From Candidatus Poribacteria bacterium (lineage in GTDB: Bacteria > Poribacteria > WGA-4E > WGA-3G), in assembly GCA_026702755.1 (NCBI GenBank), contig JAPPBX010000001.1:62001-126000 (forward strand): a DNA stretch of 64,000 nucleotides. Reading direction: 5' to 3'. The translations under genes were made by a program, and so were the position numbers. The notes under the pieces were generated by a model, which was not told the DNA's origin, searched no databases, and was given only the letters and a program-made list of their open reading frames with translations. Position 1 is the first letter of the stretch. The number at the start of each line of letters is the position of its first letter. Positions 54,340 to 64,000 of this stretch are shown piece by piece.

Positions 54340-55119
54340 ATGAATCGTTGGACGCAGCTAAGTATTGAGTTTGCCAATCAGAGAAACTATCTAGATGAAT
54401 TGTTTCGTGTTTATCCAACAATTCCCGAAGGAATTCGAGATATTGATGAAGATCTATGGGAACAAGTAGAACAGTCATTTCAGGAAAGAGACAATACCGC
54501 GCTGTTAAATGCATTACTCAAATTAGACTTGTTCCCAATAAAAGATTCCTATGTTGCGTATCTGAAAAGGGACAAGAGTGCAATAGGGAAAAACCCAAAT
54601 ACAGTTGATAGATTATGTGGTAGACTTTATGAAATGGGATTAGAGAAAATTTACGAACGTTCCTCTAAGCCGAAAGAAACAAATAGGCAAATTGGCCCCT
54701 TATTTAGACGCTGGTTAAACAAAGGGGCATTGGGCGTTCAACCCATTTCTCTTGAAGATTTTCTTGCGTCAGACGATAATGCTGTCTTGGATGCGAGCGA
54801 CGCTCAAATGAAGGACTTTGCCAAAGAACAACTAAACTACACGCGCAACAAAGGATTAGATTTTCTCGCAAGATTTAACGGTAAATATGTAATCGGCGAA
54901 GCCAAATTTTTAACCGACTTCGGAGGGCATCAAAACGCGCAATTTGATGATGCAATACGTGTTGTCGAAACGGAGGTCAACGCTGTTTCGGTTGCCATTT
55001 TAGATGGAGTTCTCTATATCAGAGGGCGTACTAAAATGTATCGTGCGATTACCCAAGACTTAACCCAGTATAACATCATGAGTGCATTGGTTTTAAGAGA
55101 GTTTTTATATCAACTCTGA
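54340..55119 (+). CDS. Restriction endonuclease of the restriction-modification pair
   Basis: 259 aa. The C-terminal half has GLDFLARFNGKYVIGEAKFLTDFGGHQNAQFDDA, a PD-(D/E)xK-type core (the D of GLDF, then E-x-K in GEAK). A similar layout occurs in type II enzymes; the exact specificity cannot be read from the sequence. It is 11 bases from a methyltransferase gene. Its base composition is AT-richer than its neighbours, consistent with transfer. The start ATG 54340 has CAGGGAAAT upstream. Confidence 0.8.
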   Translation: MNRWTQLSIEFANQRNYLDELFRVYPTIPEGIRDIDEDLWEQVEQSFQERDNTALLNALLKLDLFPIKDSYVAYLKRDKSAIGKNPNTVDRLCGRLYEMGLEKIYERSSKPKETNRQIGPLFRRWLNKGALGVQPISLEDFLASDDNAVLDASDAQMKDFAKEQLNYTRNKGLDFLARFNGKYVIGEAKFLTDFGGHQNAQFDDAIRVVETEVNAVSVAILDGVLYIRGRTKMYRAITQDLTQYNIMSALVLREFLYQL

Positions 55120-55130
55120 AGGGTTATCAA

Positions 55131-56150
55131 ATGCAGAATTTGATTATAAAAGGCGACAACATCAAAGGGCTTGAATATCTTCTGAATGAAAGAGGTCTAA
55201 AGGGCAGGATTGATTTGGTCTATATAGATCCGCCGTTTGCCACCAATAGCCATTTTACAATTACAGATGAAAGAGCATCTACGATAAGCAGTTCCCGAAA
55301 AGGTGATGTTGCTTATTCAGACAGATTGACCGGAAAACAATTTATTGAGTTTTTAAGAGACAGATTACTGTTGCTCAAAGAACTGCTGTCAGATGAAGGC
55401 TCTATTTATCTGCATATTGACTATAAAGTTGGGCATTATGTAAAGGTTATGATGGATGAAGTGTTTGGAATGAATAATTTCAGAAATGACATCACCAGGA
55501 TAAAGTGTAACCCCAAAAATTTCCAGCGAATAGGATACGGAAATATAAAAGACCTGATCTTATTCTATTCTAAATCTTCAAAACCTATATGGAATGAACC
55601 GAAAGAGCCCTATACGCCAGAAGATTTAGTGCGATTATTTCCTAAAGTCAAAAAAGGAAGAAGGTATACTACAGTGCCGATTCATGCCCCGGGAGAGACA
55701 GAAAATGGTGAATCGAGCAAAGCATTCAAAGGATTACCTCCTCCGAAGGGACGGCATTGGCGAACAGATGTGCAGACCTTGGAAAAATGGGATGAGGCGG
55801 GTCTGATAGAGTGGTCATCGAGGGGAAACCCTAGAAAAATAATCTTTGCGGATGAGCAGATAGGTAAAAGGGTTCAAGATATTTGGGAGTATAAAGACCC
55901 CCAATCCCCAACCTATCCAACGGAAAAAAATCCAGACCTGTTAGACCGAATTATTAAAACTTCTTCTAATCCTGAAAGTATGGTTTTGGATTGTTTTTGT
56001 GGTTCAGGAACAACTCTGAAATCTGCACATCTGCTAAATAGAAGGTGGATAGGCATAGACCAATCAGAGCAGGCTATAAAAGCAACAATTGGCAAATTGA
56101 GTGCAGTTGACAGCCTACTCTCTAAATATGAGTTCATATCCTTGCTTTGA
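55131..56150 (+). CDS. Beta-class DNA amino-methyltransferase
   Basis: 339 aa. Motif IV LVYIDPPFATNSHF lies early, and motif I VLDCFCGSGTTLKSAHLL with WIGIDQSEQAIK late, the beta-class order; DPPF fits N6-adenine or N4-cytosine modification. YPTEKNPDLLDRII is the family-typical motif before motif I. It pairs with the adjacent nuclease to form a type II-like system. Confidence 0.92.
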   Translation: MQNLIIKGDNIKGLEYLLNERGLKGRIDLVYIDPPFATNSHFTITDERASTISSSRKGDVAYSDRLTGKQFIEFLRDRLLLLKELLSDEGSIYLHIDYKVGHYVKVMMDEVFGMNNFRNDITRIKCNPKNFQRIGYGNIKDLILFYSKSSKPIWNEPKEPYTPEDLVRLFPKVKKGRRYTTVPIHAPGETENGESSKAFKGLPPPKGRHWRTDVQTLEKWDEAGLIEWSSRGNPRKIIFADEQIGKRVQDIWEYKDPQSPTYPTEKNPDLLDRIIKTSSNPESMVLDCFCGSGTTLKSAHLLNRRWIGIDQSEQAIKATIGKLSAVDSLLSKYEFISLL

Positions 56151-58761: not shown

Positions 58762-58801
58762 CTTTTAAGCAAGTCGTGTGTTAAATTCACAAAGGATAAA
58801 A

Positions 58802-59587
58802 ATGGCAACACCAAAGGTACTCATTTTACGAACTGCAGGGACTAACTGCGATGCAGAGACAGAGACAGCGTTCCAACTCGCCGGGGCGGAGACAGCGTTA
58901 GTCCACATCCAACACCTCATATCTGGCAAAGCCAACCTCGCTGACTATCAGATCCTCGCTATCCCTGGTGGTTTCTCCTACGGCGATGATATTGCAGCCG
59001 GTATTTTATTAGCGATTGAGATGAGACACAAACTGACAAGTACGCTCAATCGGTTTGTCGCAGACGGTAAACTGATACTCGGTATATGCAATGGATTCCA
59101 AGTCCTCGTCCGGACAGGCTTATTGCCCGGGAACGACACCTTAGAAATGACACAACGAGCGACGTTAGCAATGAACGCCTCGGCAAAATTCGAGTGTCGG
59201 TGGGTAGATTTGGAAACGCAGGAAAGTCCGTGCGTCTTTACAAAAGATATCAAAGCCCGTGTCTATCTTCCCGTCGCGCATGCTGAGGGTCGGTTTACTG
59301 CTCCCGAAGATGTGCTGTCAGAAGTAGAAGCGAACAATCAGGTTGTGTTTCGATATGCCGAAAGCAGATACCCAAACAATCCGAACGGTTCTGATGCCGA
59401 CATCGCTGGCATCTGCGATGCAACGGGTAGAATCTTCGGTTTGATGCCTCATCCGGAACGTTTCCTAATGAAATGGAATCACCCGCGCTGGACCCGGCTT
59501 TCAGAAACACAAGATACTGACTCTGAAGAGGGCGACGGACTGATCATCTTCAAAAACGCTGTTAATTACGTCAAATCGAACCTTTAA
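58802..59587 (+). CDS. purQ: Phosphoribosylformylglycinamidine synthase, PurQ glutaminase subunit
   Basis: 261 aa class I amidotransferase delivering ammonia to PurL. LRTAGTNCDAETETAF, PGGFSYGDDIAAGI, the nucleophile in ILGICNGFQVL and the His/Glu in LMPHPERFLMKW are clear. AAAGGA precedes ATG 58802; the gene follows purL by 40 bases. Confidence 0.95.
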   Translation: MATPKVLILRTAGTNCDAETETAFQLAGAETALVHIQHLISGKANLADYQILAIPGGFSYGDDIAAGILLAIEMRHKLTSTLNRFVADGKLILGICNGFQVLVRTGLLPGNDTLEMTQRATLAMNASAKFECRWVDLETQESPCVFTKDIKARVYLPVAHAEGRFTAPEDVLSEVEANNQVVFRYAESRYPNNPNGSDADIAGICDATGRIFGLMPHPERFLMKWNHPRWTRLSETQDTDSEEGDGLIIFKNAVNYVKSNL

Positions 59588-59640: not shown

Positions 59641-60075
59641 ATGCTGGATAAATTAACGCGTCGCCTCCTTCCATTCTATATGAAATTGCCTGTCTTTTGG
59701 GCGTTTATAGTGGTTTCAGTGCTGGGGCAGCTGCTTTGGGTCGCTATCATTTCCCAAGACGTATTCATTGATCTTCGCTGGTCAAGTTTCGGCTACGGCT
59801 TAGGAATTGCTTTAGGATTTATGCAAGGGAAGTGGACCTCTCGGTTATGGCAGCAGTCCTATTTAAAGGTTTTAAAACGGCAGATAATCTTCTGGGAAGC
59901 GAAAGGTGCGAAACTTCTCACTTTTTATACCTGTGTTGCGCTCGGTTTACCGATTCTCTGTCCATTCCTCACCCGCTCACTTGATACATTAGCAGGTATC
60001 CAATCTTATGTCTTCGGTTTTATCGGTGCGATGAACGTAGCACTGCTGTTATGGGTGCGACGGATGCCGAAGTGA
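59641..60075 (+). CDS. Hypothetical polytopic membrane protein
   Basis: 144 aa, about four hydrophobic stretches: VFWAFIVVSVLGQLLWVAII, FGYGLGIALGFMQ, LLTFYTCVALGLPILCPFL and VFGFIGAMNVALLLWV. No family recognised. It lies 53 bases after purQ and 105 bases before the next gene; the ribosome-binding site is weak. Confidence 0.6.
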   Translation: MLDKLTRRLLPFYMKLPVFWAFIVVSVLGQLLWVAIISQDVFIDLRWSSFGYGLGIALGFMQGKWTSRLWQQSYLKVLKRQIIFWEAKGAKLLTFYTCVALGLPILCPFLTRSLDTLAGIQSYVFGFIGAMNVALLLWVRRMPK

Positions 60076-60180: not shown

Positions 60181-60699
60181 ATGCGTCCGCTGACAATTTC
60201 CTTACCAGATTACCTCTACGAAAAATTGACGCAACAAGCAAAAGTGTTCGACACCTCTCTTGAAGAACTTGTGTTGTTTCAACTCAAGCGCGATGAGGCA
60301 AGAGATAGTGCCCTAATGTTCTTACGAAAGCGCGCGGGCAGATGCTTGATGGTAAGAGAACCTTTCCTTAAAGAATCAGCTCCACCTATCTGGGTAGTTT
60401 CCATTTTCACTAACGTCGCCCCTCCTGTCGAAGTCGGAGAGATACTCATTGATGCCGAGACCGAGGAAGTCTTAAGCACAGAGATGGACGTGATTGAAAT
60501 GATTAAAAGAGGGCACGCTAGCTTCGGGTTTGAGTCTTTCGCTGCAGAAAAACAAGAACGTTTGGCGGAACTCTTGGCATTAAACAATGAGAAAACGTTA
60601 GAATCGAAAGAAAAGCGAGAGATGGAAGCACTCCTCACTGAAGAGCAGGAACTCCAGATCCGAAATCTCGAAACATTGGAGAAACGGCTTTTGTCATAA
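60181..60699 (+). CDS. Small protein with ribbon-helix-helix-like N-terminus
   Basis: 172 aa. MRPLTISLPDYLYEKLTQQA and SLEELVLFQLKRDEA resemble the RHH/CopG-type DNA-binding module of antitoxins. The C-terminal half is helical and Glu/Lys-rich (LAELLALNNEKTLESKEKREMEALLTEEQE). GGAG nine bases before ATG 60181 is preferred. It precedes the HNH gene by 14 bases and is probably co-transcribed; it may regulate or bind the nucleases downstream. Role unproven. Confidence 0.65.
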   Translation: MRPLTISLPDYLYEKLTQQAKVFDTSLEELVLFQLKRDEARDSALMFLRKRAGRCLMVREPFLKESAPPIWVVSIFTNVAPPVEVGEILIDAETEEVLSTEMDVIEMIKRGHASFGFESFAAEKQERLAELLALNNEKTLESKEKREMEALLTEEQELQIRNLETLEKRLLS

Positions 60700-60713
60700 G
60701 CGACACATGATAC

Positions 60714-61130
60714 ATGCGTATAGATGATCCGTTGCGTGTTACGGTGGCAAACCGCGCAAATGAACGGTGCGAGTACTGCCAATACCCGGAGGAATTTTCT
60801 CCTTCTCACTTGCAAGTTGATCATATTCTGCCACAATCAGCAAATGGACCGAACGAACTCGAAAATCTGGCACTCGCCTGTTCACATTGTAACGCCCACA
60901 AAGCCACGCATCAAACAGGAACCGATCCACTGACAAGAACGGTTGTTAGACTTTTCAATCCCCGAGTTGACGATTGGACAGTTCATTTTTTCTTAAACCG
61001 CGAAACCGGTGAAATTGATGGGCGAACACCTATAGGTCGAGCAACAGTCAAAGTCCTCCTGATGAATGCTGATCAACCCATCCGAGCACGCCGAAATTTG
61101 ATGATACTTGGGTTTTATGAGACTCGATAG
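60714..61130 (+). CDS. HNH endonuclease
   Basis: 138 aa. NERCEYCQYPE, LQVDHILPQSANGPNELENL and LACSHCNAHKA form a full HNH motif with the zinc-binding CxxC pairs. The C-terminal 60 residues (RLFNPRVDDWTVHFF, IGRATVKVLLMN) are typical of stand-alone HNH proteins found in cyanobacteria and relatives. Its stop overlaps the helicase start by 14 bases (61117-61130), so expression is coupled. Confidence 0.88.
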   Translation: MRIDDPLRVTVANRANERCEYCQYPEEFSPSHLQVDHILPQSANGPNELENLALACSHCNAHKATHQTGTDPLTRTVVRLFNPRVDDWTVHFFLNRETGEIDGRTPIGRATVKVLLMNADQPIRARRNLMILGFYETR

Positions 61131-62838
61131 AAACCAAGAAAAAGCCGTAAACCACGTCACGGGACCCGCTATCGTTATCGCAGGACCGGGCAGCGGCAAA
61201 ACCACAGTCGTAACGGCACGAATTCTAAACCTCATCCAGACCCACAACATCTCACCTTCACATATTCTCGCTATTGCGTTCAATAGAAAAGCCGTTGAAG
61301 AGATGGAAACACGCATCTTGCGGGAACTCACGGCATCCGAAACCGCCCAAAAACCTGTCATCCGCACACTCCACGCCTTCGGTAAAGACATTATCACCGA
61401 AAACTATAAACGCGCAGCGTTTAGCCATATTCCTGAAATCTGGTCGGGACAGATTGATCAGATCATCACAGACGAGCAGAGACAGATTGAACGCAAAGCC
61501 GCCACTACCCCGGTCGTCATCTATAAAATAGAGAGCAAAAAGACCGGCAAATGCTATATTGGACAGACGACAAACCCAGATCGGCGGCGTAAGGAACACT
61601 TCGACCACTCCTCAAACGATAGACTCCGTCAAGCAATCCGATCTGAAGGTGAAACACAATTCCGTTTTCAGGTACTTGAACGGGTACCAGGACGAGAAGC
61701 GAACCATCGCGAAGCACACTGGATCGCTTTCTATAGAGACCAAGCGGGTGTGTTCAACCGTGCCGATCCGTTACGGGTGGAGTACAGCAACCAACTCATT
61801 CTTGAAATGTTTTGTCAGCATTTCGGCATCGTTTATGAGGAACATCTTGACAGACACCCAGACTTCAAAAATCTTCGCGAACGTTTCAACGATATAGAAG
61901 ATACCGTTATGCGTGCGAAACGGCAGGTTGTTACAGGTGTTTTCGACCCAACCACACTCGACGACCCTGTGGCACAAGCATTTGCCGTAAAATACGAGAC
62001 GCTCAAAACTGAAGCAAACGCTATAGATTTCGAGGATATGATCATCCACGCAGCGAACCTACTTGAGACCTGTCCTGACCTCCGCCAAACCTATCAAGAC
62101 AAATACCCCTATCTGCTTGTTGACGAATTCCAAGACATTTCGCCAGCCGACTTTCGGCTGATTTCACTCCTATCAGAGAATCTTTTCGCTGTCGGTGATG
62201 ATGACCAAGCGATCTACAGTTTTCGTGGAGGCAACTCCGAGATTATGCAGGCATTTACCAAGCAGCGGGATGTGAAAAAGTATGAAATCACACGCAATTA
62301 TCGTTCCACGTCAACGATTGTTGAACACGCAAGAGCCTTGATTGAGCGAAACGAGCCGCGAATCCGTAAAAATCTCCGCGCCCATAACCCGATGCAACAG
62401 TACATAAAGATCGTGGAGACAACCCCAGAAACCGTAGAAACCACCTTACTACGCGAGTTGGAACCCCCGAAAGAAATCGCTATTCTCGCACGTACCAACG
62501 ACGAAACCGAACGGATTCAGGAGATGCTTATCAACTATCCCACTCCACCTGAGGTAACGACAATCCACAAAGCGAAGGGTAGAGAATGGGAAAAAGTTAT
62601 CCTTATCCACAATACATTGGAGCGTCGCTTTCCCCGTCGAGATAGTATACTTACAGAGGAACGGCGTGTTTTCTACGTTGCGATGACGCGTGCCAAAGAG
62701 GAACTCGTTGTGCTTGGTGGACGGTGTCCATTCGTGCCAGAGTTTGAGGAAATCCCTAAAAATGTTGGTTATTATCTCCGGCAGTTTGGCTATTGGCGAG
62801 CGCGAAGGCGAATGAAAAAACAAGAAGATATAAAATAG
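61117..62838 (+). CDS. UvrD/Rep-type helicase with inserted GIY-YIG nuclease domain
   Basis: 573 aa. Superfamily 1 motifs: GPGSGKTT (23-30), RTLHAFGKDII (83-93), LLVDEFQD (333-340), GDDDQAIYSFRG (360-371), RNYRS (393-397), TTIHKAKGREWEKV (481-494) and VAMTRAKEEL (521-530). Between the first helicase motifs and motif II lies a GIY-YIG domain: VIYKIES (134-140), YIGQTTNPDRRRKEHF (147-162), REAHWIAFYRD (198-208) and VFNRADP, with the expected Tyr, Arg, Glu and Asn. The insertion sits where domain 1B normally is. It should unwind and cut DNA. The ATG at 61117 overlaps the HNH gene. The short C-terminus has no 2B-extended tail. Confidence 0.9.
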   Translation: MRLDRNQEKAVNHVTGPAIVIAGPGSGKTTVVTARILNLIQTHNISPSHILAIAFNRKAVEEMETRILRELTASETAQKPVIRTLHAFGKDIITENYKRAAFSHIPEIWSGQIDQIITDEQRQIERKAATTPVVIYKIESKKTGKCYIGQTTNPDRRRKEHFDHSSNDRLRQAIRSEGETQFRFQVLERVPGREANHREAHWIAFYRDQAGVFNRADPLRVEYSNQLILEMFCQHFGIVYEEHLDRHPDFKNLRERFNDIEDTVMRAKRQVVTGVFDPTTLDDPVAQAFAVKYETLKTEANAIDFEDMIIHAANLLETCPDLRQTYQDKYPYLLVDEFQDISPADFRLISLLSENLFAVGDDDQAIYSFRGGNSEIMQAFTKQRDVKKYEITRNYRSTSTIVEHARALIERNEPRIRKNLRAHNPMQQYIKIVETTPETVETTLLRELEPPKEIAILARTNDETERIQEMLINYPTPPEVTTIHKAKGREWEKVILIHNTLERRFPRRDSILTEERRVFYVAMTRAKEELVVLGGRCPFVPEFEEIPKNVGYYLRQFGYWRARRRMKKQEDIK

Positions 62839-62900: not shown

Positions 62901-64000
62901 ATGGTGGTAATCGCAAATTTGAAAAAGCAAAATTTCCATCCTGGCGTAACAGTTCGTGCCATCATACTCGGTTTGCTACTGATTCCGGTGAATACCTACT
63001 TTATCATGGCAAACCACCTCAAGTTTTGGAGCACCCTCCCAACCACGATGTCACTCATCTATAACGTGATTATCACGTTGATGGTGCTTATCCCCTTCAA
63101 CCTCCTGTTGAACCGATTCCTACCGCGATTCGCTCTCAGGCAGGGTGAACTGCTGACGGTCTTCGTGATGCTGTCGCTCTCCTCCGCGATCGCGGGGCAT
63201 GACATGATGCAGACGGTCATTCCGACGATATCCGATGGATACTGGTTCGCGACCCCGGAAAACGAATGGAAACAACTTTTCTGGCGTTATCTACCACCAT
63301 GGCTCACATCTAATAACGAAGCAAGCCTACAAGCATTCTATGACGGGGAGGGCACCGTTTACACAAAAGTGCACCTACTGGGTTGGCTACGTCCGATCCT
63401 CTGGTGGACAATTTTTCTGACCGTTCTCATCTGGGTGATGATTTGTATAGATGTTTTCCTCCGAAGACAGTGGATCGAGCGAGAACGGTTGACGTATCCT
63501 ATTGTGCAATTGCCGTTGGAAATGACGAGGCTTGACGGACGACTTTTTAAGTCAAAGATGATGTGGCTGGGATTCGCAATCGCAGGTGGTATCAACCTCA
63601 TCAACGGCTTTCATGTGCTTTTCCCAGAGATTCCTGAAATCCCAGTGCGGCACGCCGAAATCGGTCAATACTTCACCCAAAAACCGTGGAGATCGATGGG
63701 GTGGACACCGGTTTATGTCCGCTCGTTTGCCGTCGGACTCGCTTTCCTCATGCCGTTGGAGATGTCGTTTTCAATCTGGTTTTTCTATTGGTTCTGGAAA
63801 GCACAACGGATACTGGGCAGCGCGCTCGGACTCGATGTGATGCCGGGGTTCCCGTACGACTGGCAACAAGTGATGGGGGGTTATCTCGTGCTCGCCTGTT
63901 TTGCGCTGTGGGGTGGACGACGCTACTTTTTTGCAGTCTTCAAGTACGTCTTCCGAATCCGCAAGTCGCCGGGCGACATTGACGACAGCAGGGAGCCGAT
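62901..64000 (+). CDS. Polytopic membrane protein (DUF6785-like), partial at window end
   Basis: At least 366 aa with no stop before the window end. Translation from ATG 62901 gives hydrophobic helices VRAIILGLLLIPVNTYF, SLIYNVIITLMVLIPFNLLL and LLTVFVMLSLSSAI, then a GHDMMQTVIPTISDGYWFATPENEW loop, WTIFLTVLIWVMICIDVFL and FAVGLAFLMPLEMSFSIWFFYWFW. The layout (14 or so helices with PENEW loop) matches large unknown membrane proteins common in Poribacteria and planctomycetes. A TTG at 62919 is an alternative start. Function unknown. Confidence 0.8.
   Translation, partial: MVVIANLKKQNFHPGVTVRAIILGLLLIPVNTYFIMANHLKFWSTLPTTMSLIYNVIITLMVLIPFNLLLNRFLPRFALRQGELLTVFVMLSLSSAIAGHDMMQTVIPTISDGYWFATPENEWKQLFWRYLPPWLTSNNEASLQAFYDGEGTVYTKVHLLGWLRPILWWTIFLTVLIWVMICIDVFLRRQWIERERLTYPIVQLPLEMTRLDGRLFKSKMMWLGFAIAGGINLINGFHVLFPEIPEIPVRHAEIGQYFTQKPWRSMGWTPVYVRSFAVGLAFLMPLEMSFSIWFFYWFWKAQRILGSALGLDVMPGFPYDWQQVMGGYLVLACFALWGGRRYFFAVFKYVFRIRKSPGDIDDSREP

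Follow-up and report, generated by a model that had tools for sequence, protein, structure and literature searches.

Three closely spaced genes in the 64,000-nucleotide stretch of DNA from a Poribacteria MAG analysed here (the window) raise the question of whether an RHH-like protein, an HNH nuclease and a UvrD-type helicase carrying a GIY-YIG nuclease domain form one operon, with a candidate role in defence, as an earlier note on this DNA had proposed. The coordinates given there are all correct, as are the 14 bases between the RHH stop (60699) and the HNH ATG (60714) and the 14-base overlap of the helicase ATG (61117) with the HNH stop (61130) (Table 1). The HNH identity of the second gene was upheld by Pfam; for the first gene the position was right and the RHH assignment is weak, its RHH_5 match falling below the cut-off.

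Table 1. Features of the locus, numbered by window position, and tandem helicase paralogues of relatives, numbered within their own locus records.
Feature	Position	Strand	Basis
purQ, syntenic anchor upstream	58778..59587	+	synteny
tmp, 144-aa conserved protein, upstream edge of the variable slot before the helicase	59641..60075	+	purL-purQ-tmp conserved in the family
RHH-like partner protein, 172 aa	60181..60699	+	weak RHH_5 match (E=0.09); AlphaFold secondary structure
HNH nuclease, 138 aa, second gene of the two-gene cassette	60714..61130	+	Pfam HNH PF01844, 7.8e-14
UvrD/PcrA-type SF1 helicase, 573 aa, GIY-YIG in 1B, without 2B	61117..62838	+	Pfam; fold; orthologues
GIY-YIG catalytic domain, residues 133-215	61513..61761	+	Pfam; profile match to the I-TevI catalytic domain
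DUF6785 protein, runs off the window, downstream anchor in the window's genus	62901..63998	+	Pfam, 5.6e-119
Tandem helicase paralogue	L031 4427-8128	-	UvrD + GIY-YIG
Tandem helicase paralogue	L032 8454-10823	+	UvrD + GIY-YIG
Tandem helicase paralogue	L036 3541-7392	-	UvrD + GIY-YIG

The helicase combines UvrD-helicase and UvrD_C domains (Pfam, 6.7e-62 and 4.3e-22) with a GIY-YIG domain (PF01541, 2.2e-09, residues 134-207). Alignment to the UvrD of D. radiodurans places the GIY-YIG domain after motif Ia and before motif II, within an enlarged 1B in which 215 residues of the query (68-282) face 97 of the template (78-174). Pfam and this alignment bear out the proposal of a complete GIY-YIG domain at about residues 134-215 in 1B. 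Further along, query residues 479/480 join template residues 382/567, and 2B is therefore absent. Walker A, DExQD and the later SF1 motifs are present with their catalytic residues, as are the GIY and YIG strands and the catalytic Arg, Glu and Asn of the GIY-YIG nuclease superfamily, the GIY motif beginning here with A, V or similar. Across 48 orthologues Y136, Y147, G149, R157, H161, E199 and N214 are invariant and I148 is kept in 47; the helicase-motor catalytic residues checked are also invariant, so that the alignment check of catalytic residues proposed earlier was passed for both activities. Mean column conservation in the same set was 0.82 for the GIY-YIG domain and 0.81-0.86 for the motor. 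Being as conserved as the motor, with invariant catalytic residues, the GIY-YIG domain is not a chance feature. The AlphaFold model, moderately confident overall (mean pLDDT 80.3, about 90 in the GIY-YIG region; pTM 0.62), matches UvrD/PcrA structures in a fold search, and UvrD structures are the best matches by sequence and by fold. Judged from these alignments, the helicase-nuclease architecture is genuine and conserved, with both catalytic sites intact.

Within the window's sponge-associated Poribacteria family the helicase is present in 54 of 59 genomes, spread over four genera, and absent from all 26 genomes belonging to other families of the phylum. A 55th genome (G068) carries the first 55 helicase residues at a contig end. 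Two genomes with no helicase match are incomplete, G004 at 81% and G014 at 78%. In G021, on one contig, the helicase has been lost and an HNH remnant follows tmp, and in G034 tmp is followed by other genes and the locus lacks the helicase; because of these two cases the helicase is not essential, as far as this locus is concerned in G034. Same-locus records in Poribacteria encode proteins up to 91% identical over the protein's length. A scan of GTDB species genomes gave 45 confirmed loci, all from Poribacteria, with patterns that reach only fairly close relatives, so that a distant or convergent fusion elsewhere could escape them; within that reach, the spread of the same architecture over many phyla, named beforehand as a finding that would refute the candidate module, was not seen. 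Plasmid and phage collections returned only low-identity UvrD matches, the best plasmid match being without a GIY-YIG domain, and matches on viral contigs were limited to the nuclease region, with identities of 31-44%. On these grounds we rejected spread by plasmids or phages. Our literature searches found no paper describing this helicase family.

The surroundings and the divergence of the gene tell of descent within this family. In the window's genus and in many sister-genus genomes, purL-purQ-tmp is followed by the helicase and then by a DUF6785 or MFS gene, and purL-purQ-tmp-helicase synteny spans two or more genera; tmp homologues also lie near purQ in families without the helicase. Pairwise helicase distances follow those of PurL (r=0.91, 33 genomes), PurQ (r=0.88) and tmp (r=0.92). 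Median dN/dS was about 0.10 for the helicase, 0.12 for its GIY-YIG part, 0.18 for RHH, 0.26 for HNH and 0.05 for PurL, ratios that are approximate because dS is near 1. The marks of a mobile defence-island gene, namely patchy distribution, discordant phylogeny and defence neighbours, were not found for the helicase, which is a fixed, vertically inherited, lineage-specific gene. The simplest history is a single gain in the family ancestor, then vertical descent with few losses.

Some details of the neighbourhood vary. Several sister-genus genomes (L088-L096, L098, L102) carry the helicase among other neighbours; in RHO2_bin_17 it is found at two loci (L092, L093). In many relatives the gene directly downstream of the helicase belongs to cluster c7 (L031 7227-7499, oriented, and similar), which encodes a small coiled-coil protein with a C-terminal hydrophobic stretch; in the window no c7 gene stands between the helicase and DUF6785. 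Upstream of purL, at 54340-56150, the window holds an inserted Tsp45I-type restriction enzyme with an N6/N4 methyltransferase. G034 (L205) has a 94-96% identical pair in the corresponding position, and none was found there in the other relatives examined.

A profile search gave I-TevI as the nearest solved structure to the GIY-YIG part, and the group I intron endonuclease profile TIGR01453 matches at 4.4e-11. These closest matches would suit the domestication of a homing endonuclease, in which a GIY-YIG homing domain invaded 1B and acts, or once acted, on alleles of its host gene. We found no GIY-YIG-less allele within the family, and no GIY-YIG-less sister helicase in the outgroup families; the first of these results, the vertical inheritance of the helicase gene and the equal conservation of GIY-YIG domain and motor all argue against such an origin, which we regard as improbable.

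The gap between tmp and the helicase is, among relatives, a variable slot. RHH and a full-length HNH precede the helicase in 14 of the 54 helicase-bearing genomes, all from the window's genus; two further genomes keep RHH but no HNH (G020, G032), one keeps RHH beside a truncated HNH (G008) and one retains the end of RHH without HNH (G002). Elsewhere the slot is empty, is filled by a 7-kb insert (G007), or contains a MazF-like gene and, upstream of it, a small gene (clusters c19-c26); the MazF-like gene, mostly with its small upstream gene, was seen in L035, L036, L085, L105 and L048. In sister genera the helicase comes after tmp, without RHH-HNH. Conversely, the pair adjoins pyrB in a genome of another family (G049), and G065, G070, G076 and G081 have close RHH-HNH pairs at unrelated loci. 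Among more distant HNH copies, in Poribacteria and on cyanobacterial plasmids, those inspected have a small partner gene in front of them. HNH distances correlate poorly with those of PurL (r=0.32, 11 genomes), PurQ (0.09) and tmp (0.17).

A single functional RHH-HNH-helicase operon, partly lost in many lineages, would account for the tight spacing in the window genome, for the order kept in 14 genomes and for the correlated divergence of RHH and helicase (r=0.65). It fits poorly with the sister genera and with the pairs found at pyrB and at unrelated loci; moreover, HNH does not co-diverge, and the HNH-helicase overlap is peculiar to the window genome, relatives with the same arrangement having a gap of about 60-97 bases. 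We consider such an operon very improbable. The proposed three-gene module was thus not borne out, since its full order, whose conservation had been put forward as a check, is confined to one genus and RHH-HNH occurs without the helicase elsewhere in Poribacteria; synteny and the independence of the cassette led us to reject it. RHH-HNH is instead an independent, movable two-gene cassette, which probably entered the tmp-helicase gap in one sublineage. Its independence was computed, and its likeness to a toxin-antitoxin system is one of form: of the type II marks, the two-gene unit and mobility were seen, G008, G020 and G032 have RHH but lack a full-length HNH, and the RHH match is weak. The AlphaFold model of the RHH protein (mean pLDDT 88.8) comprises an N-terminal RHH-like region, a central beta region and C-terminal helices, and no significant fold or sequence match was found for it in the PDB.

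Relatives also carry tandem paralogues of the helicase, none of which was found at the helicase locus of the window genome. The 10 examined (L031, L032, L033, L035, L036 and L160-L164) all have UvrD and GIY-YIG domains, the first GIY-YIG being largely intact. By alignment, 7 of the 10 carry a second GIY-YIG, in which the catalytic Arg is gone in all 7 and the His in 6. Fusions to GrpE (8/10) and to S1 repeats (5/10) were found, along with weak Hfq-like matches in L161 and L163. In G029 the fused S1 block shares 65% identity over 214 residues with a second S1-bearing frame of the same genome, and the fused GrpE part is 37% identical to another match. Conceivably the helicase gene founded a Poribacteria core nuclease-helicase family in which the GrpE, S1 and Hfq-like paralogues would be sensors offering copies of the host's chaperone and RNA-binding domains to phage proteins as bait (an integrated decoy), an idea to which we give little credence.

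What, then, might the helicase do? In UvrD/PcrA, 1B and 2B touch the duplex in front of the motor, and Rep is activated when its 2B is removed. By UvrD/PcrA geometry, the GIY-YIG domain in 1B would therefore lie near the ss/dsDNA junction. We propose, at about even odds in our own judgement, that the protein is a lineage-specific, vertically inherited 3'-to-5' SF1A nuclease-helicase without 2B that nicks duplex at the junction in the service of genome maintenance. It would load on single-stranded or branched DNA and translocate at the expense of ATP, with a probable 3'-5' polarity, and its I-TevI-like GIY-YIG domain would nick the duplex at the junction being unwound; one polypeptide might in this way both incise and unwind damaged or branched DNA. 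Counting against this reading are the lack of the gene in G021 and, at this locus, in G034, its other positions in several sister-genus genomes, and the failure of the outgroup families to yield a GIY-YIG-less sister that could reveal the ancestral role. UvrC and PcrA were both present in all 17 helicase-bearing genomes tested, UvrC in most of them as a shorter UvrC-like protein; in 6 the best PcrA match falls short of the curated cut-off. We accordingly rejected the idea that the helicase replaces UvrC or PcrA: with both retained, it adds a function.

The same protein could be read as an anti-phage or anti-plasmid nuclease-helicase, Gabija-like in a single protein, whose motor scans the ends or forks of invading DNA, whose GIY-YIG domain cuts and to which RHH-HNH is optional. 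GajB is the best defence profile for the helicase (5.2e-67), yet the housekeeping PcrA profile scores about equally (4.4e-64), and UvrD structures match far better than GajB structures. The toxin-antitoxin-like cassettes in the slot before the helicase, the patchy chimeric paralogues behind it and the restriction-methyltransferase pair 5 kb upstream all speak for defence, and the variable slots on both sides and the chimeric tandem paralogues, being seen around defence genes too, count against maintenance. However, the helicase is vertical and nearly universal in the family, its neighbours are mostly metabolic, and no GajA-like gene is among those called nearby. We therefore think a defence function rather unlikely. 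The context does not support the defence role first suggested, the helicase being fixed and, in most cases, flanked by purine-biosynthesis genes on one side and a DUF6785 or MFS gene on the other; given vertical inheritance, near-universal presence and metabolic neighbours, genome maintenance is more likely than mobile defence, though a core immune role is conceivable.

Of the earlier picture, the unusual architecture stands, with its catalytic residues; the three-gene module does not, and the defence role finds no support in the context. If our reading is right, a bacterial nuclease domain sits inside the duplex-contacting 1B of a 2B-less UvrD-type motor, intact across a whole family, in a compact enzyme whose cutting and unwinding would be coupled by construction. 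The locus is also a clean case in which the tight spacing of one genome hinted at an operon for which comparative genomics gives no support.

Among known systems, the HNH gene shares its HNH core with Septu PtuB and other small HNH nucleases (PtuB profile 2.9e-13) and, like the HNH genes of cyanobacterial plasmids, has a small protein as its partner; Septu membership was rejected, as no PtuA-type ATPase adjoins it among the neighbours scanned. Gabija consists of GajA, an OLD ATPase-TOPRIM protein, encoded beside the UvrD-like GajB. The Poribacteria helicase shares the UvrD-like core of GajB, whereas its nuclease is a GIY-YIG domain in the same polypeptide and not an OLD/TOPRIM partner, and Gabija membership was rejected, the window neighbours scanned including no GajA and the anchors being purL, purQ, tmp and DUF6785. 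With UvrC and I-TevI it has the GIY-YIG catalytic residues in common, and differs in lacking the other parts of UvrC and any intron. Like UvrD, PcrA and Rep it has all core SF1A motifs; it differs in its GIY-YIG insertion, in the loss of 2B and in its score (217 bits, below the curated pcrA cut-off of 911), and a PcrA is encoded in the genomes tested as well. Tlr1/Tlr8p of a Tetrahymena polinton-like element also joins an SF1 helicase and a GIY-YIG domain in one protein, with the GIY-YIG C-terminal to the helicase and in a eukaryotic mobile element (PMC1564403, PMC3671162), whereas in Poribacteria the domain lies inside 1B of the product of a bacterial chromosomal gene.
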